Shown here: piece by piece, positions 2,863 through 60,400 of the stretch
How positions within the stretch are numbered: the first letter of the stretch is position 1
Layout: each line of letters starts with the position of its first letter
From: a virus
Virus record (IMG/VR): IMGVR_UViG_3300046361_000034
Coordinates: 1-64,000 of that record
Strand: one strand, 5' to 3'
DNA: 64,000 nt
The notes under the pieces: generated by a model
What the model was told of the DNA's origin: nothing
Databases searched by the model: none
The model's input: only the letters and a program-made list of their open reading frames with translations
Made by a program: the position numbers and the translations under genes

Positions 2863-3123
2863 TTAATTATCTTTAGAAATTAGTTTAGGTGGATTTAACT
2901 GCTCTTTCAAATAAGCAATAGCTTTTTCAACATTATCAAATACTTCATCTTTTGGATAAGCTTTTATAATGAGTTTATCTTCTTGAAAAGTTTCAAATTG
3001 TACAGCTATTTCTCTATTGTCATTACTTACAACATTTCCTACAGCAATTGTAGCAGATTGTGTAATATTATGTCCATATAATTCTAGATTAGATATTACA
3101 TAAACTTTAGTTCCATTATTCAT
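2863..3123 (-). CDS. Hypothetical protein
   Basis: An 86-residue soluble protein, predicted as mostly beta-strand in the first two thirds (alternating hydrophobic segments VYVISN, TIAVGNVV, IAVQFETF, KLIIKAYP) followed by one helix. It overlaps the start region of its upstream neighbour by 8 bases and sits two bases upstream of the next gene, so it belongs to the leftward operon. The strand-rich layout could suit a small nucleic-acid-binding or adaptor protein, but nothing in the sequence proves a function. Confidence 0.6.
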   Translation of the reverse strand: MNNGTKVYVISNLELYGHNITQSATIAVGNVVSNDNREIAVQFETFQEDKLIIKAYPKDEVFDNVEKAIAYLKEQLNPPKLISKDN

Positions 3124-3319
3124 CTTTAAGGAGTTTAAATATTTTTCTTGATTTTATTCTTAATTGTTCTGTTAATATATCAAGATATTCAAAATTAATA
3201 GAAGTTCTAGTAATAAATTCTATCTGATTTTTAAGATAACCTTTAGACATATCTTTAATAAAATGTTCTTTGCCTAAATGATCTATATAGATATTAAGTG
3301 ATTGCTGTTCTTCATTCAT
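3116..3319 (-). CDS. Hypothetical protein (67 aa)
   Basis: A 67-residue helical, charged protein beginning MNEEQQSLNIYIDHLGKEHF. Its 3' end overlaps the next gene by 8 bases. It contains no cysteine cluster, membrane segment or motif I can name. Position in a closely spaced operon is the main support. Confidence 0.55.
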   Translation of the reverse strand: MNEEQQSLNIYIDHLGKEHFIKDMSKGYLKNQIEFITRTSINFEYLDILTEQLRIKSRKIFKLLKDE

Positions 3320-3335
3320 TGTTTGGTTTAGATTA

Positions 3336-3611
3336 TTAATTATTGTTTAAATAAAATACTAAAAGAGTTTGAGTAGTATCATTAAGTGCAGTATTATCTA
3401 CAAATACTACTTCTCTTTCTGTTTCTTCGTGATTATATTTAGGTTTACACATCATAATTTGATTAGTAAAAGTATTATAACCAAGTATAGACCAAAAACC
3501 TATATTAGTATTATTTAAATAACCTTTATTATGATTATTCAGTATATCTTCATTAGATTTAATAAGTCTTATAGTAGTAAAATTAAAAACTTCAGTTTTA
3601 AAACTGCACAT
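3336..3611 (-). CDS. Hypothetical protein (91 aa)
   Basis: A 91-residue protein with several short hydrophobic strands (FNFTTIRLI, FWSILGYNTF, TQTLLVFYL). The ATG at 3611-3609 lies 14 bases inside the end of the upstream gene, suggesting coupled translation. No recognised domain; probably a small soluble phage-specific protein. Confidence 0.55.
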   Translation of the reverse strand: MCSFKTEVFNFTTIRLIKSNEDILNNHNKGYLNNTNIGFWSILGYNTFTNQIMMCKPKYNHEETEREVVFVDNTALNDTTQTLLVFYLNNN

Positions 3612-3909
3612 AATAATGAATAGTTTTATCTTGTATTAATAACTTTACTTGCTTACTACAATTTATTTCATTAAGTGTACCAGATAATTTTAAATCAGTT
3701 ATTTTTTGATTATCAGATGAAATTAATTCATAAGTTTTAGTATCTATTTTAGTAACAACTCCTGATAATATTTTAGAATTTGCTATTACATCTTTAGCTT
3801 TATTAACCTTACCTACAATAACATCATTATCTATAAATCTATTACTAGATTTACATTGAATACCTTCATGTAATAAATACCCTATAATAATAGTATTAAC
3901 TTTAGACAT
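3598..3909 (-). CDS. Hypothetical protein (103 aa)
   Basis: A 103-residue, lysine-rich, strand-rich protein with repeated short beta segments (VIVGKVNKAK, SGVVTKIDTKTYELIS, VKLLIQDKTIHYYVQF) suggesting a small beta-barrel. It overlaps the GroES-like gene stop by 8 bases and the next gene by 14. An OB- or SH3-like fold is possible, but no motif establishes this. Confidence 0.55.
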   Translation of the reverse strand: MSKVNTIIIGYLLHEGIQCKSSNRFIDNDVIVGKVNKAKDVIANSKILSGVVTKIDTKTYELISSDNQKITDLKLSGTLNEINCSKQVKLLIQDKTIHYYVQF

Positions 3910-4315
3910 TTACATTTACTTGGGTATTATCAGGAAGTAATTCAGCTAATATATAATCTGCATTAGTAAGAAGTACTACATTAGTACCTTCAATTGGTAA
4001 GTCAAATTTATCTACACCATGAGCAGCAAATATAACAGTTTTACCTATAAGAGATACTTCAGCTTGTAGTGTATTTGGGTCAATATCAGTATCTTTGCCT
4101 TTAGAGAGAATAGTAGAGAGTCTTTCTTTAACAACATTATCTAATTTACCTTGTGCAATAATTACACCAGTTCTCATTACTTGATTACGTTTTTCTTCTT
4201 CTATTTCAGCAGTAGCACGTTGAATACCACCAGCAGTAGTTTCTTTTACCTCAACAGGATGTGCATCAATTAGGATTTTGTTCTCTATAAGAACGATGTG
4301 TTTTAAGTTTAACAT
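3902..4315 (-). CDS. GroES-like co-chaperonin (Cpn10 fold)
   Basis: The protein follows the Cpn10 pattern from end to end. An opening strand HIVLIENKILID is followed by the mobile-loop region with TTAGGI, the strand TGVIIAQG, then VIFAAHGVDKFDLP and the closing VVLLTNADYILAEL, which matches the GroES ending (E-x-D-ILA-x-L). GroES caps the GroEL chamber; phage versions such as T4 gp31 replace it so that host GroEL can fold the large capsid protein. I start the gene at the ATG at 4315 (137 residues) because the fold begins there; a longer frame from a TTG at 4378 adds a hydrophobic leader that does not fit the family. It is longer than the usual 95-110 residues because of an insert (SKGKDTDIDPNTL). 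It is the first gene downstream of the hairpin-rich region. Confidence 0.78.
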   Translation of the reverse strand: MLNLKHIVLIENKILIDAHPVEVKETTAGGIQRATAEIEEEKRNQVMRTGVIIAQGKLDNVVKERLSTILSKGKDTDIDPNTLQAEVSLIGKTVIFAAHGVDKFDLPIEGTNVVLLTNADYILAELLPDNTQVNVNV

Positions 4316-4389
4316 TTGAATATGATTTAAGATTAATAATAAGTTAAATAATTTCTTCAACATTTCTTTTATAGGCAAATAGTCGCTCT

Positions 4390-4433
4390 AGTACTATAAA
4401 ACGTGGTACACGAGTACCATAAAACATAGTACT
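4390..4433. repeat. Two-tier hairpin
   Basis: A perfect 8-bp outer stem AGTACTAT/ATAGTACT encloses two unpaired 7-base flanks and a perfect 5-bp inner stem GGTAC/GTACC with the 4-base loop ACGA. It lies upstream of the GroES-like gene, so a leftward transcript would carry it in the 5' leader. The octamer AACGTGGT at its inner edge recurs in the loop of the hairpin at 4767-4796. Confidence 0.6.
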
Positions 4434-4610
4434 GATTTAAGAAAAAAGTGAGTGTTTATAGGGGTTAACAAAGGTTGCTTCTATATAATAATAGTAAGCC
4501 ATTCGGATTGATTTTCCTAGTGATTTGATATATTAATTTTGGCTTATTATAAAGCCCTCTATTACATAATAATTTATATAGTAATATCAGAATATAACTT
4601 TTAAAAATAA

Positions 4611-4674
4611 TTGCAATACGGTTAACGCATAGGCTCACACAAAGGCGTATGACTATACATTTAACCGTATGCAA
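4611..4674. repeat. Long stem-loop, 14 bp with one bulge
   Basis: TTGCAATACGGTTAA at 4611-4625 pairs with TTAACCGTATGCAA at 4661-4674, leaving one unpaired A in the left arm. The 35-base interior can form a further short CATA/TATG stem. It is the strongest stem of the array and is GC-richer than its surroundings, consistent with a structured RNA or a protein-binding palindrome. Confidence 0.6.
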
Positions 4675-4766
4675 CTATAACCAAACAACTAACAACAATC
4701 AATCACAAATTGTATGTTAAATGCTCTAGTATAATCAATACTAATAGCATTATAAGTTCTTTTAGC

Positions 4767-4796
4767 ACCATTATATACAACGTGGTCTATAATGGT
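4767..4796. repeat. 9-bp hairpin
   Basis: ACCATTATA at 4767-4775 and TATAATGGT at 4788-4796 form a perfect 9-bp stem around a 12-base loop that contains AACGTGGT, an octamer also present in the hairpin at 4390-4433. No T-run follows on either strand, so it is unlikely to be a simple terminator. Confidence 0.55.
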
Positions 4797-5004
4797 CAAG
4801 CTGGTAACTCCTTACACGCCAACAAGTATCTCAATGAGTATCTCTATGTTCAGCTTCTAATACCATATCAGCTGTTGTGTAGATAAGTTTATATGTACTC
4901 CCAATTTTAGTATGTAACTTAATGTTAAACTAAAGCACAACTTCACTATATCTTTCTTTTCTATATCATCATATAGTAGGTTTCAAGGTTTAACCTAGAT
5001 TTTG

Positions 5005-5187
5005 CTAATGATTTAGCGTATGAATTTGCATGAATGTTAACAATAGAGAAGATAGTATTCCATATTGTTTATATGCAGTTGTAAGATTATCAACTGTTCG
5101 GTTAATAAGTTCTTGTTTTTGTGGGTTAGTAGATGCTACTAATCTTCCTTTAGAAATTCTTCTACGTTGTTTGGTTGGGTTTGTCAT
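5005..5187 (-). CDS. Small basic hypothetical protein (60 aa)
   Basis: A 60-residue protein with a strongly basic N-terminus (KQRRRISKGR) and a more hydrophobic C-terminal half. It begins 19 bases downstream of the Cys-cluster gene on the same strand, the normal spacing in this operon. The basic start suggests nucleic-acid binding, but this is only composition. It is the last gene before the hairpin array. Confidence 0.45.
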   Translation of the reverse strand: MTNPTKQRRRISKGRLVASTNPQKQELINRTVDNLTTAYKQYGILSSLLLTFMQIHTLNH

Positions 5188-10689: not shown

Positions 10690-10809
10690 TTGCCTTTAGG
10701 AGAAACTCTTGGTGTTACTTATGTAAATTATTATATAATATATATAGTAATTCAGAATATTATGCTATATTTGTACACCGACTACACCAATAACCACTCC
10801 TAAAGGCAA
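10690..10809. repeat. Long inverted repeat around the rightward promoter region
   Basis: TTGCCTTTAGGAG at 10690-10702 is the exact reverse complement of CTCCTAAAGGCAA at 10797-10809. A second pair inside it, TTGGTGT at 10709-10715 and ACACCAA at 10784-10790, continues the symmetry. The 68-base centre is AT-rich and holds the promoter-like box. The right arm ends 37 bases before the first rightward gene. Confidence 0.65.
10766..10773 (+). promoter_or_regulatory. Candidate Bacteroidota -7 promoter box (TAnnTTTG)
   Basis: TATATTTG matches the TAnnTTTG -7 element of primary-sigma promoters in Bacteroidota and lies about 75 bases upstream of the first rightward gene. No good TTTG -33 element is seen at the usual distance, so it may need an activator, or it may be a chance match in AT-rich DNA. 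It lies between the arms of the inverted repeat. Confidence 0.4.
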
Positions 10810-20137: not shown

Positions 20138-21649
20138 ATGGTAGGTACACCTAACAGCTCTTTTGCACTTCAAAATGGTAATTATGCTAGAATAGTGCAA
20201 CATGAATCTTTTGGAGATGAAGGATATACTAATAATCTTTCTCTTGCTAAAGCTCGTATGACTAATCCTGATAGTCTTAATCCAGTAATTACTCATTTAA
20301 TGGGTAATGAATCTAAAAAGTTTCCTTTACTTTATCTTACTGAAGGACAAGTTGGAGGAAATAAGTTTGTTGAAATACAAGATGTTGAGTATGATTGGCC
20401 TGTATTTGGTAGACTTCGTCGTACTGATGCTGTTGCAGGACATGATTATGCTCCTACAGATAAACCAGGATATGGTGGTCAAGACGTTTATGTTATCTTT
20501 AAAACTCGTTGGTTAAAATATCAACATAATATTGTATCTCCTAATGGTGTATGGGCACGTATTGTATCACAACCTGAAAAAGTATCTACTGGTTTTAAAT
20601 ATAAACTTGACCTTATTAGACAAAATAATGTTACATCTGTACCATTATCTGAATTAAAAACAGGAACTCTTTGGGCAATGTCTGCTGGAGCTAACGTTTC
20701 TGAATCTTATTCTACTGGTAATGAAAGTAATAAACAATTTCCTGGAAAACTTAAAAACCAAATTGGTATTTTAAGAAAATCTTATGAAATTGGTGGTAAT
20801 GTTTCTAATAGAATGACTACATTTCATTTCTCTGTTAATGGTAAAGAAGAGAATTATTATTTACCATTTGAAGAATGGCAACATGAGATGACATTCAAGC
20901 AAGATTGTGAGGAGTCTTTATGGGAATCTAAATATAATAGAGATGCTCAAGGAAATATTATGAATATTGATCCAGATACTCAACTTCCTATTCCTTATGG
21001 TGCTGGTGTTAAAGATCAAATTCCTAATAGAGATTCTTATGGTGTTCTTACACTAAAGAAACTTAAAATGGTAATTAGTGAAGTTATGTATGGTGCTACT
21101 GATTCTGATAAAATGAATGTAGTTTTATTTACAGGACTTGGTGGTAAAGAAGAATTTTCTAATGCTATTATGAATGAGGCTAGTGGATGGTCTTTATTTC
21201 AAGGTGCTTTAAATAATACTATTACTGGTTCTCCAATGGGATTAGTATTTGGTAATGCATTTACACAATATCGTCATATTGATGGTCATATGGTAACTGT
21301 ATCTCATTTACCTTATCTTGATTTTGGTGGTACTGCACAAAATGCCCCTACTCACCCTATTAGTGGTAAACCAATGACTTCTTATGAAATGCACTTTGTT
21401 GATATGTCTGTATATGATGGTGTAAATAACCTTCAATTAGTAACTCAAAAAGGTCGTTCTCTTATTAGAGGTATTGAACAAGGTATGACTTTGTTAAAAG
21501 GTCTTAACTATGGTGATTATTCTGGTAACACTATGGATATTAAATTGTCTACTTCTCAAGATAAAACAAGTATTCATTACATGAAAACTCTTGGTGTAGC
21601 TATTCGTAGAAATACACATTGTTTCTCTTTATATTGTACTGCTAGTTAA
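20138..21649 (+). CDS. Major capsid protein
   Basis: This 503-residue protein matches the Crassvirales capsid protein in position and style: LTEGQVGGNKFVEIQDVEYD near the start, SPNGVWARIV, FHFSVNGKEENYYLPFEEW, and a C-terminal LKGLNYGDYSGN region. It should form an HK97-fold shell. Codon use is of the strongly expressed type for this genome, and the gene is followed by a strong hairpin terminator, consistent with its own abundant transcript. The phage GroES-like protein may assist its folding (inference). Confidence 0.9.
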   Translation: MVGTPNSSFALQNGNYARIVQHESFGDEGYTNNLSLAKARMTNPDSLNPVITHLMGNESKKFPLLYLTEGQVGGNKFVEIQDVEYDWPVFGRLRRTDAVAGHDYAPTDKPGYGGQDVYVIFKTRWLKYQHNIVSPNGVWARIVSQPEKVSTGFKYKLDLIRQNNVTSVPLSELKTGTLWAMSAGANVSESYSTGNESNKQFPGKLKNQIGILRKSYEIGGNVSNRMTTFHFSVNGKEENYYLPFEEWQHEMTFKQDCEESLWESKYNRDAQGNIMNIDPDTQLPIPYGAGVKDQIPNRDSYGVLTLKKLKMVISEVMYGATDSDKMNVVLFTGLGGKEEFSNAIMNEASGWSLFQGALNNTITGSPMGLVFGNAFTQYRHIDGHMVTVSHLPYLDFGGTAQNAPTHPISGKPMTSYEMHFVDMSVYDGVNNLQLVTQKGRSLIRGIEQGMTLLKGLNYGDYSGNTMDIKLSTSQDKTSIHYMKTLGVAIRRNTHCFSLYCTAS

Positions 21650-45436: not shown

Positions 45437-48400
45437 ATGGCATTAAATCCTAACTTTAGAAAAACTGTATCTAGTAAAGATATAGTTTTACCTCCAGATG
45501 CATCATCTGAAAATCCTCAACAAACTGTTGGGGATTTAGGCGTTCAAATTGGTTCACCTGTTTCAAGTACTTCTCATCCCTTAGAGGACTTAGGAAGTTT
45601 AGTACAAGGATATGTAGAAACTGGTAAAGAAAAATTACTTAATCTTAACTTAGATGAGTATGCTCCTTATTTTGGTAATAATATCGGAGCCTTTGGTAGC
45701 AAAGAAGACCTTGATAAAAGTAGAGCTTTTAGACAAGGAAGTGGGGAACAATTTCTTAATGCTGCTGGTAGAGTAGCTATTAACGTTGTTCCTGAAATGG
45801 TATCACAGCTAGCTAATGCTGCTGACTTTGAAGATTACTTTAATTCAGACCAAGAAGTTGGTAACTGGGTTAGTAATGCTATTAATAAATTTGAAGTAGG
45901 AGTAGATAAAGCTTTACCTATATACAGAGAAAATCCTGATAAACCTTTAGATATAGGTGATAATGCTTGGTGGTTTGAAAATGGTAGTAGTTTAGTTAAA
46001 TCTGCTGCTGCATTTGTTGGTGCAGGTTATCTTACTGGTGCTGCTGCAGGCTCACTATTTACTAAAGGCGGAGAAGCTCTTAAATGGCTTAGTACAATGG
46101 GTAAAGAAAGTCAGTTAGCAGATACAGGTAAACAAATTGCTAATGCTGGTGCAACTCTTGCTAATGCAATGATGTTAAATCAGGCTGAAGGTGTTGGTAT
46201 AGCAACCGATCAATTTCAAAAGAGTTATACTAGGGCATCTAATGACCTTAAAGCATCTGAAGAAGGTAAATCTTTAAGTGATGAAGAAATAGATAATCAA
46301 GCTAGAAAGATTGCTGCACAAGAAGCTACATCTGCACTTAACTTTAATAAGATTAATATTCTGTTAAATTTAACTTCTGCTAATATGTTTATGAAAACTT
46401 CTTTAGGTACTAGAAGTTTATTAAATGCTCCTAGTCTTAAACATGGGTTAATAGAACTCGGTAGAGAAGGTGCTCAAGAATATGGAGAAGAAGTTATTAA
46501 TGATATTTCTCAAAATCAAGCTACTGATAAAGATTATAGTTTTCAGAAAGCTATGGAGTACTCAATGACCGCACAAGGTATCGAAAGCGGGTTACTAGGC
46601 TTCATTGGAGGTGTCGGACAGACCGCCTTAACCAAAGCTGGAAAGTACCTACCTATATATAGCAATCGTGCCTACAATCAAGCGTATGCAAGTCATTATC
46701 AAAGTATGAAAAACACAGACTTGACTGATATTGAAAAAGATGCTAAAGCTAAAGAACTTGCATTAAGAGATGTAGGTACTAATAAATCTAGAGTTTCTGA
46801 TAAGTTTAATGAATCTAGTAGATATACTCAACAACAAAATGCTCTTAACAGGTGGCAGAATTTAGAAAATTCTGATAAAATTGGAGATATATCTAATGCT
46901 TTTTCTACTACTGATGAAATACTAGCTTTACATAAACAAATTGCTGATGCTCATGCTTCAGGAGATGTTGCTAAAGCTAAATCTTTAGAAGAAAGAACAT
47001 TTGGTTTACAAGCTAAACAAGCATTTCAAACTGGAACTACTGATGCATTTGAAAAAACATATAAATCTTTTGCTGCTTTAACACATGAAGAAGCTGAAAA
47101 GAAAGATATATATACAGAAGGAGATGAAAATACACCTAATTATTATAAAACTAGAGCTAATGAAGCAGTTAAAGATATTCAATCTCTAGAAACTATTTAT
47201 AATAATAGTCAAGCATATTTAAATAGTAATGATGTTTATGATATGGAAGAACATAAACATTATACTAATAAAGCTATTAAGTTAAATTTAGAAAATGTAA
47301 CTAAAGAATTTAATAATGCTTTAGAATTATATAAAAATAGACCTGAAACTTTACCTAGTAAAACTAATAGTTTTGTAGATTTAAATAGTCCATCTGGTTA
47401 TGATTTAAATAAAACTCAACCTAATTTTAAAAAGACTCCTAGCTATAGAAAGATTAAAGCTATGCTAGAAGCTGATAAAATTTATAGAGATAATATAGGA
47501 AATATACAAGAAGTTATAGATTTAACAACTTCTAGTAGTTACCAAGAAAAATTAAAAAATGCTATTAATAATAGTAGAAAAGCAGTAGTTAAAGAAAATA
47601 AGTTAAAACAAGTATTTAAGAAAAGATCTGAAAAGAAAAAAGAAATTAATACTTTAGTTAACACCTTAGCTAAACAAGCAAAAACAGAAGTAAATACTAA
47701 TAGTGTAGTAGAAGATGTTAATACTATTAATGATGTTATAGAACCTGGAAAAACTTTGCCTGTAGAGAATATTGAAGAAGAATCTGTTGTTACTCCTAAA
47801 CAAGATGAGGTTAAAAAGTCTTTTCCTAGTAAACCTGTATTTGTTAATGTTCCTTCATTTAATGATGCTACTATAAATAACAAATTTATAGAACTTAAAG
47901 GTATAGCTGAGAATCCTGATATATATTTAGAAGATAGTATTGATTATTTAGAAAAATCTATTGATGCTGTTAGAGTAGCAAAAGACTCTAACGCAATCCC
48001 TTCTCTAGAGGCAAACAATGTAGAGATTGGTTTAAATAGTCTTACAGAAGCTCTTAATGATTTAAAAGCACAAAAAGCACAAGAAGTTGTTAAGGCAGAT
48101 GTACTTAAAAGTATAGGGCGTCAATTATTAAATTCTATTAATGGAGAAGAAGATATTGATACAAATAATACCGATTCCCCTTCTAAGCAATTTGATAAAG
48201 CAAAACAACAAAGAGAAATTAATTTATTAATGGATTATCTTAATGTATTAGATAATACAGGAGTAGATATTACAGATTTCAAACAAGTTGTTAATTCATT
48301 TGAAAACAGTACTTCTAAAGCAGAAGTTATAAAAGCTTTTACTAAACTTAAAGGTCTTTTTATGGCTTATACTGGTCAAGAAGTTGAGGGTAGTTATGCT

Positions 48401-51400
48401 GAAATAATGTATGATTCTGTTGAGAAACAAAAATTATCTGATAGGTATAAAGGTATCAATAAGTATAATGTTATTGGTGATTTTTATACTGCTCCTAAAG
48501 ATGATATCTCTACAGATGCTTTAAATTCTATTGCTGATTTAGCTAAGTTAAATGGTTTAGATGTAAATGGTTCTGGTGTATCTACACAAATTTATAATGA
48601 TACTGCTGCTAATTTATTGGCATACTTATCTAAAAAATATAAAACTACATTTACTAGTAAAAAATCTGATAGTGGTCATAGATATATTGAGGTAACAAAA
48701 TCAGATTTAAATAATTTACTTAATGAGGCATTAAACCAAAGAGTATTAGATCCTGACTTTTTATCTGTTGGTAAAGAAATTACTTTTGTTCCTTTAGATT
48801 CAGTTACTTTAGAAAATGGTGATTTGTTATATGCTAAAGATGTGGATGTAAATGAAAAACCTATTGGTATTGCAGTAGATGGAGAATTAATTGATGGTTT
48901 ATATTTACACGATACTGGTTGGATAAATATAAATAATATAGATAATACTTCTGCAAATATTGTTAATGACCAAAATACTCTTAGAAATTTAAGAGCACAT
49001 ATATTAAATAGTAAAATACCTGTTACTACAGTTGTACAAGAAAGAAGTGCTGGTGTACCTATTTTAGATGAAAGTGGTGAATTAAGTACTGTATTAGAAA
49101 ATACACCTGATGTTGAAATAGGAATTATAAAAGAAGGTTCTGTATTTACTGGTAGAGAATCTATTGTACAAACAGTTAATATTTCTAGAATAGATGAAGG
49201 TAAAGGAGTTATTATTATTCCTTTTAATAATGAAAAATTAGCATTATCGGTAAAAAGAGCTAAATTAGATACTGGTGTAATTGATTCAATTATTACTGCT
49301 ACAGAATTGTATTTAAATGGTACTAAAACTGAGTTAACAGATGAATTAGATAAAACTTATCAAATTAATATATTAACTTCTAGAGGATTAGAACAGTATA
49401 TTAATCAATTTATTGGTTATTCGTCTTTAGATATTAAAGATAAACAATCTTTTTCTGATAAATTAATCAATATTGCTGATAATATTTCTTTAATACAATT
49501 TAATAATGGTAGGTTATATTATGGACAAGGACAAGAAATAGGAGTAAATGATATTTATCCTAGTAAAAATAATGGAGAAGAAAGACAAAAAGATTTAAAA
49601 CATTTTAGACAACATTTGAAAAAAATGTATCATCATATAAATTTAGATTTATTAGGTACAGATACTGGAATTAAACTTATGCAAAATAATAAAGTATTAA
49701 TACCTTATAATACTTATAATGAGTATGCTAAATCTGTTATGTTATCTCCTTATCTTTCTATGAAATTAGATAATGGTAAAACTATTTATACTTTACAAAG
49801 TAGAATTAAGTTTGATTTAGAAAAAGCATTTAGTAGTAATAATAAAGCTAAAAATGTTATTAAATCTTTATCAGAGCCTTTAGATAATACAAATGTAGAA
49901 AATACTGTTCAGCCTTTATCAGAACCTAAAAGTAATGATATAAGTTTACCTAATGGTAAAACTTTTAGTTTTAATGATGTAACAGAAGATACTTTAAGTC
50001 CTGCTAAAGAAAATAATAATTTACCAAATGTATTACTACCTATAGGAACATCAGGTAGTGGTAAATCTACATTTATAAAATCTTTACCACAAGAAAATTT
50101 AGTAATTATAGAACCTGATGCTATGAGAGTAGAATTTACAGGAGATATAAATAATAAAACTAAAGATAAAGAAATATATGAAGAAGCTACTAAAAGAGCT
50201 ATCATTGCTATTAAACAAGGCAAACAAGTAGTATTTGATACTACTAATTTAACTAAAGATAAAAGACTTCCTTTTATTGAAGCTATTAAAAAAGAAATAC
50301 CTAATGCTAATATTCAATATAAGTTAATGGAATTAAATCCAGAACTTGCTAAACAAAGAATAAAAGCGCAAATTGAAAAAGGAGAAAATAGAGCTAATGT
50401 TTCAGATGAAACAATAAATAGACATGCGCAAGCTTATCAACAAATGTTAGAAGATATTAAAGAAGAACCTTTAACAGAATTTAATGATAGTCCTAATTTA
50501 ATTGGAAATGAAAATTATGATGATTTAATTAATTCATCTTCTTTAATTCCAGGATTATCTGTTACTACTCAAACATCATTAGTTAGAAGTATTGTAAATG
50601 ATATTTATAACGAAGCTTCTGATAGTGCTGAACCTGTTAAACTTAATAAACAACTTAAATTAGCAGTTGAAAGTCTAGAAATGATTAGAGATAAAGCTGT
50701 TGAAATTAATCATTCTAAAGCTGGTGAAATTAATAAAGTTGTAGAAGCTGTTAAAGCTAATGTTAAAAAATTAACTAAGGCTGTTAATCTTGAGTACAAG
50801 AAAAGAAACAGTGTTGTAGGAGTTATTAATTTAGATAACTATAATGAATTATCTATAGATGAAGAACAAAGTATTAAAGATGGTGGTAACGATAAATTAC
50901 AACTAACTGAATATACTATTGACCCTAAAACTACTTTAACAGGTAGAGCTAAACAAATGTTAGAAGGTATTACTGATAAGAAAGTAACTATTACTGAAGA
51001 TGGTAAAGAATTTACTACTAAAACTACTTTATTAAATTTAAATATATTTATTCCTTTTGATATTGTTTATAATAACTTAATTAGTATATTAGGTAAATCT
51101 AATACTAATGCTAATATGGTTCAAGTAGATTCTAAATTGATTGAAAAACATGGTAAACATCCTGATTATGTAGTTCATGCTTTAGAAGAACTTTCTAAAC
51201 ATATTGAAACTAAACCATATTTAATTGATGTTATGGAGAAACTTAAAACTGCAGAACCTGATGTTCAAAACTCATTTATATCTGCATTGAATAAAGTTTC
51301 TACTAATCATATATATGTTCATGCATTATATGATAAACCTAATAACAAATATAGTTTAAGAATTAACAAAGCTGCTAGTAAAAATATTACAAATCTTGTA

Positions 51401-54400
51401 CTATCTGAATGGCAAAATAATCTTAATTATAGTAAATTACTTAGTTTAGACAATGATAGAATTATTTATAATTTTAGAGCCATAGATGCATTTAATAAAC
51501 AATTTAAAGAAATTGCTGATAAAAATGTCAATCCTAATTATAAAGAACTTAGTGATTTATTAAAATTAGTAGGAATAGAAATTCCTATTCAACTTTATAA
51601 TACTTGGAATAAATATGGAATTAAAGTAAAAGGAACTAATCAAACATTATTAGATTCTTTTAAATTTTCTACTGGTATATTTAAGAATATAGGTAAAAGA
51701 CTTAATTCTTATAATACTAATAATGCAGAATGGTTAAATCTATCTGAAAATAATTTATATGACGATAGTTCTTTTACAAGTTTAGCAAATTTAGTATCAT
51801 ATTATAGAGTAGACTTATTTAATGACTCTTTTAAAAATGCTAATGGTGATACTATTTTTGGTTATACAAATGATAGATATGCTATTACTAGAGCATTAAA
51901 ATTAAAAACAGATGTTAAATTATTATCTGATTTAAAGTCTGATGTATTTGCTCAAGATTCAGTTTGGTTAAACCAATTACTTAAAAAAGGAGATACTATA
52001 GCTATTAATGAAGAAAGTACTTTCTATAAATACTTTCAATATGGTACAGCTGAAAGCCTTAAAACTAAAAATGCTCTATTAGGTAAAACTATTGATACTC
52101 TTAAACCTGCTGAGTTAGCTAAATTTCATTTTAGTTTGTTTCAAAATGGTGGACTTAAAATAGGTAAAGATTCAGATCCTACTCCTATTATGCAAGTTAT
52201 TTATCCTACTATGGAAGAAAAAGCTAATGCTTTTATATTTCAAGTTCCTGGAGAATATTATAAACTTACTGCAGAAGGTAAAATGCATCCATCAGATAAA
52301 CAAAAACTTGTTGAAATTTTGATATATCCTGAAATTCAAAGAATATTAAAACATCAAGCTGATCCTAATGCTGTACAAATTGATGGGTATAAAGAAGGTG
52401 CTGGAAAATTTTTATTATTTCCTAAACTAAATGATGATGCTAGATTATTTGATAAAACAGGTCAATTATTAGATGAAGTTCTTTTACCTGAATTTAATGG
52501 TATAGATTTTCAAAATATACTACAAGAGCATTTATATAATCATTTAATGCAAATATTTAAAGATACTAGAGAAAATTGGAAAAAATTTGGTATTATTACT
52601 ACTGATAAAAATAGTAAACAAGATCAGTTTCAATATATAGATGCTAGTTATAAAGCTGCTTTTGCTGTACAAGGTATTAATACTACTCTTTTAAATTATG
52701 TAATTAATACTACTGTTGCTAATATGAATATACAACAGCTATTTATAGGAGATCCTGCTTTATATTATAAAGGAAGTTCTGATGCTATGACTACTGGTCA
52801 ACTTACAGCAGATAATCAAGGTAAACGCTTATCAGCTGATAATGCAGGTGCTATTCAATTATTATTCCCACAAGGAAGTACATTTAATACTTTAGTTATT
52901 AAAGATAATTATGTATCTAGTAAAAGAGCTGATTATATTGAAAAATTATATAAAGGTTTTCCTGATATTTATGGACAATATAAAAAAGGAACATTAATGT
53001 CAAATGGTAAACAATCTAAAGGTATAAACTCTACTGATGCTCAAGGTTATCATACTTTAGAAGAACATCTTGATATTATGCATTCATTAGGTACACTTAG
53101 TTTAAAAGATAAAACTAAAATTTTAGATACTTATAATAAAACTGGCAAAATTAATAAAAGTGATAAAGCATTAGTTTTACAACCTTTTAAACCTAGATAT
53201 GTAAATAACTTTAACAGATTTGGTGTTAATGCTAGGCTTTATTTTAAGTACTCTACTCTACCATTAATTAAACAATTTACTCAAGGTACTGATTTAGATG
53301 TATTAAGAGAACATATGGAGAAAAACAAAATACAACTTGTATTACATGAATCTGCTGTAAAAGTTGGAGGATCTGCTAATATTATTGATGTTTATGACTC
53401 TAAAGGTAATATTGTTATACCTGTTAAATGGAAAAGTAGTTTAATTACTAATATTCCTAGAGAAGGATTAGGTATACAACAAGATGTACCATACAATTCT
53501 AAACAAAAAACTGTTAATGATGGTACTCAACAAGCTAAAGAGTTGTTTACAAATATTATGGATATTGATGGATTTATTGATCCTGAAACTGGTAAAGCCG
53601 TAACTGGTAGAGAGTTATCTAAAACCTATTTAGTTAAATACAAAAAATCATTTTTATCTAAATATAATAAATTAATTCAAGAATTAGATTTTGATACTAA
53701 AACACATACTATAGGAAATTATGATAAATTATATAAACTTTTAGAAGATGAGGGTTATAATAGAAATTATAGTTCAAATGATATTCAAGGCTTAGAAACA
53801 GTTAAGATAGGTAATAAATCTGTTAAATTTACTGTACCATTATGGTTAAATACTGCTGATAGTAAAATCGTAGCATTACTAAATTCTATTGTAGATAATA
53901 AAGTTAGAAAAAGAAGTTTTAGAGGTAAGTCTTTTGTACTAGCTTCTGAAAGCGGTACTCAACTTAAAACTATTAAAGATGTTAATTTATCTGAAGTAGT
54001 AAAAGTAGGAGATTGGGATGGTACATTAAAAGGTGCTTGGGAAGATAATGAAAATAAAGGACAAATGTCTTATGCTGAAGTACTTGTTCCTTTTAAATTT
54101 TGGGATAATAAAGGAGAACTTCTTAAGTTAGATGAATTTATGAATGATGGAGTAATAGATTTAACTAGATTACCTGAAGAATTATTAGAAATATTTGGTT
54201 ATCGTATTCCTACATCTGGTTTAAATCTTATATCTAATATTAAAATAGTAGGATTTTTACCTGCTAGTTATGGCGATATAGTCATTGCTCCTGCTGATTT
54301 TATTGTACAAATGGGTTCTGACTTTGATGTTGATAAATTATATACTCATATGTATAATACTCATTATAATGATGTTACTAAATCTTTACATATTGTTAAT

Positions 54401-57400
54401 AAAGATATTAGTAGTCAACATAATAACATTACTCAAAGTATTAAAGTAATGGAAGATAGAGTTAAAGAACTTTCTAGGAATGGAGTAGCATCTGCTAAGG
54501 ATAATAATTTAATAGTTGCTTTACAACAACAAATAAATTTATTAAAAGAAAGTGATTTAATGCAATTAAAAGATATTGATGAACAAGTTATACAAAATGA
54601 TTTATTAGATATTCATAAAGCTGTTTTAAATAACCCTAATGTAGAAGTTCAAAAAGCTAGAACTAATCCATTAAGTTTTGGAGAATTACCTGCATTAGCT
54701 AAAGAAATTTATAAAGAATCTAATAGATTTTTTACACCTTTAGCTAATACTTATCAACAAAATAAATATTTAAGTGCTAGAGCAAGTAAAACTGCTGTAG
54801 GTGTATTTTCACTTGATACTGTTTTTAATAGTGTACTACAATATATAGAAAAACCTATGTATTTTACTAAAGTTGTTAAAGAGGGTGAAAATATGGTAAC
54901 AAAAGATATTAGATATACTATTGGTGGTTATACAACTAATGCTTTAAATAATCCTAAAAGATTAGATGGTAAATGGAAATCTGATAGTTTTATTGCTTTT
55001 ATGGCTACTGCTCTTGATAATGGTAAAGAACAATTATTAGGTAAATTAAATATTAATAGTGATACATTTGATTTTATTAGAGCAGCAAATCAATTAGGAC
55101 TACCTGAGAATTTAGTTATCTTAATGATTAATCAACCTGCTATTAAAGCATATCAATTATCTAAACAATTTTTTGAGGATGTTGAAATTAAGCCTTTTAA
55201 TGAAGATATTGAAAATATATTATCTACAACATCTATAGAAAATTTATTAAAAACTGTTAAAGGTGATGATATAACTTCTGATAGACAACAAGCCTATTTA
55301 AGCTTCTTCAAAGAACTATCTTCTAAAGGCAGACAATTAAAAATACTACAATCTGCTATCAATTCTGATAGTAGTGGTATAGGTAAAAATATATTTTATA
55401 GTATTAAAAAAGCTGAACAAATATTAAATTTACCTAAATCTACAGAAATTTCTAATGTAGATAATTTAATTGGTAATTATATATATCTAAATGAAAGTCC
55501 TGCTTATAATAAATTATCTGTTGAAGAGCAAGAGGGGTATATTAATACTAAAAAAGAAGATGGTTATATTTTATATAATAATGTATTAATTCAACCTACA
55601 TCTTTAGGAGGTATGGCTGGAGTTTATGCTACAATGTTAAATAATCAATTATGGAGTAAATTATATCCTTACACTGATAAGAATTATTATAGTATAATTA
55701 CTAGTATTATCCCTGCTGATTCTGATAATAGTACTATTCAAGGTAGTGCAGATGCTTTACAAAATTCTGTAACTAATTATAAGTCTTTTTTAATTTCTAA
55801 TACATTTAATTTGTTTACATCTAAATATACAAGTATAACTGAAGCAAGAAAAGATTTGTTATTTGATAGAGAAAATCATTTAAGTCTAGGTAGTTTTATT
55901 AGTCAAATTAAAAATACTAAAGCTTATTCTAATGCAATGTTAGATAGATTACAAATTGGTAGAAGTAATCAAATTGTTGATATTACTGGAAGTATTCCTA
56001 CTGTTATTACATATCAAAATGCAGGAAGTGTTGAAATGGATGAAGAAGTTATTATTAATAGTTTTATTGATATGATTGTAAATCCTCAAGACTTAGGACA
56101 ATTTAATGGTGAAAGTATTAATACTAAACAATTAGCAGATTTGTTAATTACTCATCAAATGATTAATGGTGGTATTCAAAAATCAAATCAATTTATTAAA
56201 TATATACCATTTAAGTACTTACAAAAAAGAGGATTTTATAAAGCTGTAGAATCTACTAATGTTGTTACAAATGTAGATACTGTTAATCAAATTCGTAATA
56301 CGTATTATACTCAATATTTACAACATAATCCAGAAGAATTTTATAATGAATTTTATGATATAGAGTCCCCTAAATTTGTAAATGACTATAAAAATATTGT
56401 TAATGGTAAATTAGTAGGAGTAGATCCTCAATTATCTGAAAAAACTAATTTTGTTATTACTAATAAAGCTAATTCTGAAATTTATAGAATTTTTAAACAT
56501 GATGATATGTCAGGAGATTTTATAGAGATAGATAACTTAGGATGGAAGGGTAACAATGAGTATGACATTAATGCAACTTTTGCTGCTAGAAGTTCTATTT
56601 ATATAAATCAAGTAGATAACTATTCTAATTTTGATAAATTAAATGGTATAGATACTAGTAATTTTGAAGAAATCAATGATGATGTTATTGAAAATGCTGA
56701 AGAGCATCTTCCTAATCCTACAGAAACGTCAAATTTTTTACGTTTGGATAGAGATACAAAGTCAGATAATTCTCCTGCTATTTATAATGAAAATAAGTAT
56801 GATTTGGTTAAAAAGTATTATTTAGATGATAATAATTTATCTATTGAAGATAAGTATAGATTGATATTAAAAGAAGTTGAGGCTAATAGTACTAATCCTA
56901 TTGTACAATATTTTAGTAAAAAATTGGTTGATATTATTCCCTATCTTGCAGAAACACCATTGTATGTAAATACTAAACTTCCTGTTCAAGGTAGAGCTAC
57001 TACAACTAAGTTATTAGGAGAACCTGTCAGAATTGAAATTAATCCTAATCTTATTAGTAGTGATGAAGAAATGGCAGAAGTTTTGATGGAGGAAATGATA
57101 CATGGTTTACTTAAAACTGAAATAAGTAAAGGTAGTTCTGAATTTGTAAAAAGTCTTAATAGTATTAAGAATGAAGTAAGAAGTATATTAATAGAAAAGT
57201 ATGGTAAAGAAGCTTTTGATACTGTAGATAAAAAGATTGTTGGAAAATTGCCTTTAAAAGAAGGTGTGGAGCGAAACCTTATCTATAATGTATATAATCT
57301 TGATGAATTTGTTGCTGCTGCTATTAAAGATAAAACATTTCAAGCTTTTCTTAATAGTACTGAAAGTTTAGATTCTACTAAATCTATATTTTCTAGATTT

Positions 57401-60400
57401 GTTGATTACATTAAAAATCTTTTAGTTAAGTTAGGTGTAGTACCTGATAAAAACTTAAGTGCTGTTTTACATGAAATTATCAATGTTGTAGAATCTCCTA
57501 ATTTTCAAGTAGGTAGAGAATTGGTTACTCCTAAATATGTTAGAACTGTTGGTTATCTTAATAATAAGTTTAACTTAACAAACAACACTAACGAATTACG
57601 TTCTAAAGGTAATGCTGAAGAAATAGCAGATTTTATTAATAGAAATATAGTTAATGTAGAGGCTGTTGTTAAAGATAATTTTGTAATACTTACTTCTAAA
57701 AAATTATATGAAGTAAATGAGGATAACTCTTTTGGTACAGAAGATATACAAGATGAGGGATTTGGTTCTAATCTTGTTAATTACTATCAATCTTTAACTC
57801 TTAGAGTAGCCAAATTAAAAGCTAATATTAAAAAAGCTGTTGAATTAAAAGATTTTGTTAGGGTAGCTGATTTAACAGAAAGATATAATGTAGAAAAAGA
57901 TAAATTAGTTGGTGTTAAAAAAATTACAGCTGCTGTAGATTTAGCTGATAAGGGTGAAGAAGATTTACAAATGATAGAAACTATTTTAAATCGTAAGATG
58001 ACTTCTGAAGATATTGTATATGCTAGAGGAGTACTTAACTTTTGGAAAGATGCTAAACGTTTAGTATTTAATGAAAGATTAAATAGTTCTAAGCCTTTAA
58101 CTAGAATTTATGGTGCTATTGAGGGTAGTGCAGAAGCTCTATCAGATAAGTTATTTAAAATTGAGAAAACTTATATGGAAGAGTACATTAAAAAATATAC
58201 TGACCAAGATATTAATCTCGATCAACAGTTTAAAGATTATAAAGATATTAATATTATTCAAGCAAATGTTAGAGATATCTCATCTTATGATAATATTTTA
58301 TTATCTTCTATTTGGTCATCTGTAAAACATGCTAATATAGCTGCTACTAATGAAGGTAATGAGAAGTTAGAAAGTATAAACAATCAATTAACTAAAGTAG
58401 TTCCTGTATTAAAGTCTTTAGGAAATGCTGAATTATTTGAGGTGTTTAGACAGAAAAATTCTAATGGTAAGTTAACTGGTCATATTATTAATCCTTATAC
58501 TGATATATTTTATAAAGATAGAGCAAAAGTTCTTAAAAAATTAAATAAAGACAATACTCAAACTAATTTTATTAAATATCTTAATTGGATTAATCAATCT
58601 GCTTTTGATGTAGATTTAGAGTCTATTTTTCCTACTACTGGTGAAACAGATGCTACAACAATAGTTAGAGAAGAATTAAAACAAAAGTTAGGAGCAGGTG
58701 TTTATAGTTTTTGGTTTAAAAATCAAAAGAATAAAATAGATTCTTATAATGACCATAAGTTTGGACAAACTCAATCATTATTAGCTAAGTATAAATTAGC
58801 ATCTGAACAAGATATTCTTAATAGTGATGAGGCTAATAGAGAATATAAATTTTGGATAGAAAAAAATAGCCCATACAGATTAGCTAAATATGCTTTCCAA
58901 GATAATATTAAATTATCTTCTGAATTTGGTTATACCTCACAAAAATATTATGAAGTTATTCCTAAGGATTCTGAGTACTTAGATAGTAATTATGATACTA
59001 TTTCTAATAATCCTGAATTGTTAGAGTTTTATAATACTATAACAGATTTGTTTAAAGATTTAAAGAAATATGTACCTGAAAGTCAACAAAAAACTTTAGC
59101 TTATGGTGGTGTTCCTTCTCTTGAGAAATCTATTGTAGAATTATATACTGAACATGGTATGCAATTAGGAGTATTACCTATTCAAGATATATGGACTAAA
59201 TCAATGCAAAGTAGTTTTGGTGATAATACCTCAACTATTATTGACCCTGTTACTAATAGACCTATAAATGAAATGCGTATTCCTATTATTAAAGATAACT
59301 ATAAAGAAGTTCAAAAATATATTAAACAAAAATCTGCTGAGTATTTAATAGAAAATAATAAAGCACCTAGTGCTGACATTATTAAAGGATTTGAAGAAGA
59401 TATTATTAATGAAATATCAGAAGGTAAATCATTTGATTTAGGTAAAATTGCTAAAGTTTATACTGCATTAGTATTAGCCCATAAACATAAATCTAAAATA
59501 GAAGATAGTGTTAAAATTGCAAATACTGTTTTAAACAAATATGAGGAAACTAGATTAAGACCTGATGGTACTCCAGAAACAGATGCCATGACTGGTGCTA
59601 TTCAAAGAAAAGGAGCTGATCAATCATTTGGTAATATTAAATCTGCTTATGAGTCTTACATAAATAATGTATTTTATGGGGATATTCATGAAGAAGAAGG
59701 TAAAGGTAAAAAATCTTTAACTAAATCTGAAAAATTAGAAAAAGCTAAATTATTAGGTTTACTTAATCAATTAGAAGTTCAACATGATAATAAACTTATA
59801 GAGGATGAATTATATAAAAGTACTAAAGATAACTTAACTGAACAACTTGGTAATCTTGGTAAAACATTTATATATTCTAAAGCTGGAGATAATGTTCTTA
59901 AATATGTACAATTAAAGTTAATGGGTTGGAATGTATTAGGCGGTATTAGTAATATGGGTTTTGGTTGGCTCTCGAATCAAATAGAAGCCGCAGGTGGACA
60001 GTTTTTTAATAAAGCTGATTTAGCCTATGCCTACAAATTATCGTTGCACTCAATCACTAAAAATGCGTCATTTAATAAACTAGAAACTGATACTGCTAGA
60101 AAGATACGAGAAGGTATGGATAAATGGGACATATTAAAAGATGCATCACATGAGCTTTATACCTCTAGCACTCCTAGTAGTTTTGATAGTAAATTAAAGT
60201 TTCTTAAACCCTTTAATGTAAATCAACGTACAGAATATTTGAATCAAGCACCATTATTTATTGCATTATCTCGTAATACTATGGTAGATACAACTAAAGG
60301 AAAAATTTCTTTATGGGATGGTTTTGATAAAGATTGGAATTGGAATGAAGCTGAATATGGTGCAGAACCTACAGAAGTTATTAATAAAATGAGAATTAAA

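Follow-up and report, generated by a model that had tools for sequence, protein, structure and literature searches.

GOLLD is a large structured RNA of phages and prophages that is often encoded near tRNA islands; its members are often >800 nt long and its function is unknown (PMC12286853). ROOL, an elaborate pseudoknotted phage RNA, shares the frequent proximity to tRNA islands and is non-essential where tested; a published example of 659 nt assembles into an octameric cage, and both GOLLD and ROOL form cages (PMC12286853). In addition, phage ICP1 produces an abundant long transcript without an ORF, which has been likened to GOLLD and ROOL (PMC7567579).

The predicted RNA described here resembles GOLLD and ROOL, by analogy, in setting and complexity. 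Some copies touch tRNA genes, namely type B copies in two contigs only (G003, on both sides according to Rfam, and G006, tRNA-Ser); none of the type A copies was found beside tRNA genes, and ARAGORN calls no tRNA in the window. In contrast to GOLLD, the core copies span 174–473 nt, match no GOLLD covariance model, and were found only in crAss-like phages, if one leaves aside two further Cellulophaga phages that have a P5 remnant. The RNA differs from ROOL in that Rfam cmscan searches gave no ROOL match. The ICP1 RNA, which comes from a Vibrio phage without tRNAs, is set beside it by description. Unlike tmRNA, the RNA has neither a tRNA-like domain nor a tag frame, and neither ARAGORN nor Rfam calls it a tmRNA; ARAGORN finds the neighbouring tRNA and tmRNA genes only, not the RNA copies themselves. 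Searches with Rfam 15 (cmscan) returned no match, either at the gathering score for the window and six relatives or at E values up to 5–10 for four copies. Since the Rfam models are unmatched and the size is smaller, we file the RNA as resembling GOLLD and ROOL and not as a member of either. Only a few large phage RNAs without a known function have been listed; the present one would be an unrelated, smaller family among them and would help to ask whether such RNAs share a role in translation. In the papers searched, no conserved structured RNA gene was described for crAss-like phages, tRNA and tmRNA aside, which does not prove that no such description exists.

Genomic setting and architecture of the RNA

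The window, i.e. the whole 64,000-nt stretch of DNA analysed, belongs to a virus record of 83,005 bases. Its capsid protein (20138–21649) is ~23–37% identical to Crassvirales capsid proteins, and its Dda-like helicase (248–1600) has matches in crAss-like phages among many others. A 5234-aa ORF (45437–61141) represents a type of giant protein found in crAss-like phages, a group that dominates many viromes. Genes in the window to the left of ~10 kb are directed leftward. Within this region, 4316–5004 contains no convincing gene, as the sequence-only reading had proposed for 4379–5004, and for the ORF at 3902–4378 the ATG at 4315 is the most likely start codon.

Comparative analysis indicates that a structured RNA core is encoded at 4760–4997 on the minus strand, with the same orientation as the genes on either side. 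Its order is H1, P1, P2 enclosing P3 and P4, the junction strand J, and P5 ending in GGUGCUAA. The features of the region, all on the minus strand, are as follows:

5005–5187, minus: small basic protein with a RRRISKGRLVASTN motif, adjoining the type A RNA or one gene upstream of it in five of six contigs
4760–4997, minus: conserved core, H1 to GGUGCUAAAA, with homologs in five more type A contigs; type B is more distant
4977–4997, minus: H1 hairpin UAGGUU-AAACCUUGA-AACCUA; the loop CCU is predicted to pair with AGG of J (PK1)
4881–4953, minus: P1 helix AGAUA..AAGUU / AACUU..AUCU, from sequence comparison by eye
4877–4881, minus: P2 5' strand UACAC, partner GUGUA at 4813–4817
4851–4874, minus: P3 hairpin CAGC..GCUG; within its loop motif AUGGUAU, the letters GGUA are predicted to pair with UACC of J (PK2)
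4824–4844, minus: P4, a variable helix, judged by eye in the relatives
4813–4817, minus: P2 3' strand GUGUA, from the type A alignment
4803–4812, minus: junction strand J, AGGAGUUACC, common to PK1 and PK2
4764–4802, minus: P5 hairpin AGC-UUG-ACCAUUAUA..UAUAAUGGU-GCU, with a compensatory change between types A and B
4721–4750, minus: lineage-specific 3' extension hairpin AUGCU..AGCAU, from the fold
4611–4674, minus: long 3' hairpin UUGCAUACGGUUAA../..UUAACCGUAUUGCAA, local z −5.0
4575–4595, minus: repeat AUAUUCUGAUAUUACUAUAUA, found again at ~10740–10760; candidate leftward promoter of the next unit
4390–4433, minus: two-tier hairpin without a counterpart in the relatives, holding the only terminator-like site

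The distal part of P1 holds a module, CUAAAAUUGGGA, that sits in P5 in two of the relatives (L017 and L044). These two contigs also carry a 3' hairpin placed similarly to that at 4611–4674 but with a different stem; the hairpin at 4611–4674 is possibly the 3' end of the RNA or a terminator. The longest open frame across all RNA copies is 55 codons.

Distribution in related phages

The predicted RNA is common to the window and at least 14 other phage records, one of them a cultured phage. By our comparison it constitutes a family in 15 phage records, with six records carrying type A, 11 carrying type B, which is longer, and two carrying both. As the relatives were reached mostly via one neighbouring protein family, this distribution is a biased sample. 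A search of viral contigs with the GroES-like protein yielded no relatives, and BLAST of the region against phages gave no match.

The nearest contig by helicase similarity (L017, 56% identity) has a gene-free gap at the equivalent place, and the two gaps have in common the blocks UAUGGUAUU, GAACAUA, and AGGAGUUACCAGCU.GACCAUUA. Pattern scans identified six contigs with type A, namely the window itself and L017, L005, L010, L035, and L044. Judged by context, the matches in 11 of 16 contigs in one scan and in 14 of 19 in another were due to chance; the candidates in L091 and L092 lie inside an ORF. The covariance model R1, which was built from the six type A members, detects each of them at no worse than 1.6e-9. 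It also gave a weak match in G014 (22.9 bits), where H1 and the J strand can be read, as can a P5 that shows compensatory changes. A motif search over the loci added L007 as type B, and BLAST with L007 led to an isolate, Cellulophaga phage phi14:2 (E 9e-8), in which the annotated ORFs overlying the copy have been withdrawn by RefSeq. A second model, R2, built from these three type B sequences (G014, L007, and phi14:2), recovered type B in eight further records (G003, G004, G005, G007, G008, G009, G010, and G012) with E values from 1.4e-9 to 2.3e-4, and each of these matches, when read, has H1 and the P5 end. G007 and G008 hold the same type B sequence, and G004 and G009 each carry one type A and one type B copy at different places.

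Several other matches were rejected. Two in genome contigs were attributed to chance (L079 with just 19.7 bits, L080 without a hit), a 24-nt exact match in Pseudoalteromonas phage HM1 is a P3-like hairpin within an ORF on the other strand, and R1 matches at E 0.03–1 in reference phages were not accepted. Eleven other reference phages, including crAss001, crAss002, p-crAssphage, and cr127_1, gave no convincing match to R1 or R2.

Cellulophaga phages phi4:1 (L095, 3001–3100) and phi17:2 (L096, 3001–3098), which belong to another genus than phi14:2 but share its host, contain a P5-only remnant after the nearly identical end of a shared gene, suggesting that the RNA segment was transferred or has decayed. 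Such a moved or decayed segment would also be expected of a self-splicing or self-cleaving ribozyme or of a mobile-intron remnant between phage genes, as would the compact pseudoknotted core with its conserved single-stranded letters and the HNH-like ORF located 3' of the RNA in L035. We nevertheless consider this origin improbable, as no Rfam intron or ribozyme model matches and the flanking ORFs are complete wherever the context was read, leaving no split gene to be rejoined.

Covariation and pseudoknots

The helices vary in sequence while their pairing is retained. P2 is UACAC/GUGUA in the window and CACAC/GUGUG, AAUAC/GUAUU, or GCUAU/AUAGC in other type A members; within type A its pairing is 100%, and four of the five pairs have changed on both sides. 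In P3, two stem pairs differ on both sides between the window and the other type A members, and P5 changes from ACCAU/AUGGU in type A to ACCCU/AGGGU in type B. P4 reads, by eye, AAGA/UCUU, AGU/ACU, or AGGAUAU/AUAUCUG in the relatives.

In a MAFFT alignment of the six type A cores, from which the P4 and P5 loops had been excised, P2, P3, and P5 are paired in 100% of 118 cells. Double changes occur in 13 cells at six pairs, compared with 3.8 in shuffles, none of 500 being as high. P1 was left out of the covariation tests. For 14 distinct composites of types A and B that include both pseudoknots, 97.0% of 406 cells are paired, with 76 double changes vs. 23.4 in shuffles (0 of 500), and pairing drops to at most 43% once the partners are slid by 1–3 columns; however, these composites consist of helix letters only, and their registers were chosen by hand. 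This choice biases the result towards the adopted structure, and sliding the partners does not correct for it. One composite row (L112_L118) carries the letters of L112, and the L035 row is identical to that of L010.

The aligned copies show that the H1 loop and the P3 loop can each pair with J, giving two predicted pseudoknots. PK1 is formed by CCU/AGG in five type A members and by CAU/AUG in the type A member L044 and all of type B. As L044 is otherwise type A in every respect, its replacement of a predicted C-G pair by A-U is an extra double change, and the split between types A and B does not explain it. PK2 changes from GGUA/UACC in type A to GAGA/UCUC in type B; this double compensatory change may be one single event, since it varies only between the two types.

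Folding of the gene-free stretch

The sequence-only reading had described 4379–5004 as an array of similar stem-loops. This is confirmed in part, but a single conserved RNA gene accompanied by lineage-specific hairpins is the more fitting description. Compared with dinucleotide shuffles, a control of the kind suggested at the time, 4316–5004 has a far more stable fold on either strand: the global z is −3.4 on each strand, and with the pairing span limited to ≤120 nt it is −4.6 (plus) and −4.8 (minus), with 0 of 200 shuffles as low. Local fold z alone did not single out the region, as equally low values occur at several other places in the window and in L017. Much of the stability comes from the hairpins at 4390–4433 and 4611–4674. 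The postulated abundance of long stems is weaker than supposed: there are three perfect Watson-Crick stems of ≥8 bp (4390–4433, 4616–4670, and 4767–4796) vs. 0.89 in shuffles. Two of these three lie outside the conserved core, among them the clearest two-tier hairpin. The two-tier design is not conserved in the relatives, nor is the shared octamer AACGTGGT, which occurs once at the variable P5 tip and once in a hairpin that the relatives lack. ARAGORN finds no tRNA in 4316–5004, as had been stated, and Rfam has no match there. The reported absence of terminators does not hold entirely, since the minus strand contains one terminator-like site (4419–4404, then CGTTTTATAG).

The isolated core (246 nt) has a z of −1.2, a stability that is not unusual; the evidence for it is the covariation. 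Its lack of hyperstability, together with an excess of perfect stems that is modest enough to be reached by 33 of 500 shuffles, would fit chance folding of AT-rich DNA without a functional RNA, but the compensatory changes, which extend over both subfamilies and 15 records, contradict this explanation, which we regard as extremely unlikely. The interpretations first offered for the hairpins thus find partial support. Abundant compensatory changes in relatives, a check named beforehand, support a multi-hairpin non-coding RNA. An array of protein-binding sites in the DNA finds no support, as the conserved pairs are RNA-like (G-U occurs), every copy has the orientation of the adjacent genes, and the repeats show no conservation.

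Genomic context and possible role

All RNA copies are co-directional with the neighbouring genes. The 3' neighbour varies and can be a GroES-like gene, a 132-aa, 108-aa, or 81-aa gene, an HNH-like gene, a 249-aa-type gene, tRNA-Ser, or tRNA-Met. The HNH-like ORF (L035, 5342–5890) lies directly 3' of the RNA and is absent in the relative L010. In phi14:2 (L094, NC_021806.1), the RNA copy at 2910–3365 is followed, ~0.7 kb away, by a tmRNA at 4031–4500. ARAGORN assigns this tmRNA the tag GSSVQKLAMVA, Rfam scores it at 46.0 bits vs. a cut-off of 47, and the ORFs formerly annotated over it have been withdrawn in RefSeq.

The comparison shows that the predicted secondary structure, including its two pseudoknots, is conserved and that it recurs among related phages. 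We think it probable that this is a free-standing structured non-coding RNA that is released from the early operon and acts in trans, with translation as its likeliest target. The minus strand at ~4760–4997, possibly out to the hairpin at 4611–4674, would encode the RNA within the leftward early operon, and J would be paired in turn by the H1 loop and the P3 loop before continuing into P5. The RNA would be transcribed along with the early genes, freed by processing or termination, and folded into a compact particle that may act in trans on a phage or host complex. It would work like GOLLD and ROOL, outside both families. Several relatives lie against tRNA genes or near a tmRNA, which makes the translation machinery the likeliest target; the link to translation is suggested solely by this gene neighbourhood.

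The RNA lies within an operon of co-directional genes, and the following start codon is often only tens of bases away. Such a position might be expected of a cis-acting early-operon element governing the downstream genes, such as a riboswitch, an attenuator, or an antiterminator like the phage put RNA, and in both the window and L044 the RNA is followed by a hairpin and then the GroES-like gene. However, the downstream gene differs between members and is not a fixed family, and two records have two copies at different places, so that we consider such an element rather unlikely. With downstream genes that differ and copies that are co-directional, a trans-acting RNA cut from the early transcript is likelier than a cis switch.

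An RNA decoy or inhibitor directed against a host defence or another host factor had also been put forward. The early-region position, the two copies in some phages, and a structure kept while its surroundings change would suit this function, but nothing was found that links the RNA to a defence system and no Rfam defence RNA matches, making it very improbable.

An extension of the favoured trans-acting RNA, to which we assign a low probability, is a new class of RNA machines common to environmental Crassvirales, in which J would knit two loops and a helix into a compact core. The RNA would form a particle, with or without protein, that either remodels host translation or provides shelter for phage tRNAs. 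On this speculative reading, the small basic protein might be the particle partner for type A. As phi14:2, which carries a copy, and its host Cellulophaga baltica are both in culture, expression, deletion, and structure are directly testable.

The small basic protein family has the motif R-[IV]-x-x-G-x-[LIF]-V-x-S and relatives in six contigs (L017, L044, L010, L035, L005, and L011); Pfam has no match for it. A near-identical repeat, TATATAGTAAT(A)TCAGAATAT, follows the 3' hairpin (4575–4595), recurs in the divergent region (~10740–10760), and is a candidate phage promoter. The succession of the hairpin at 4611–4674 and this shared repeat suggests that one transcript ends here and the following one begins. 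A second phage-borne tmRNA, with the tag VDTEELAVAA, is called by ARAGORN in another crAss-like contig (L008, 9947–10366). Finally, L017 contains a very stable gene-free hairpin at 980–1030 (AAGCATATTCGCTACATATGTGGCGAGTATGCTT), apparently unrelated to the RNA.
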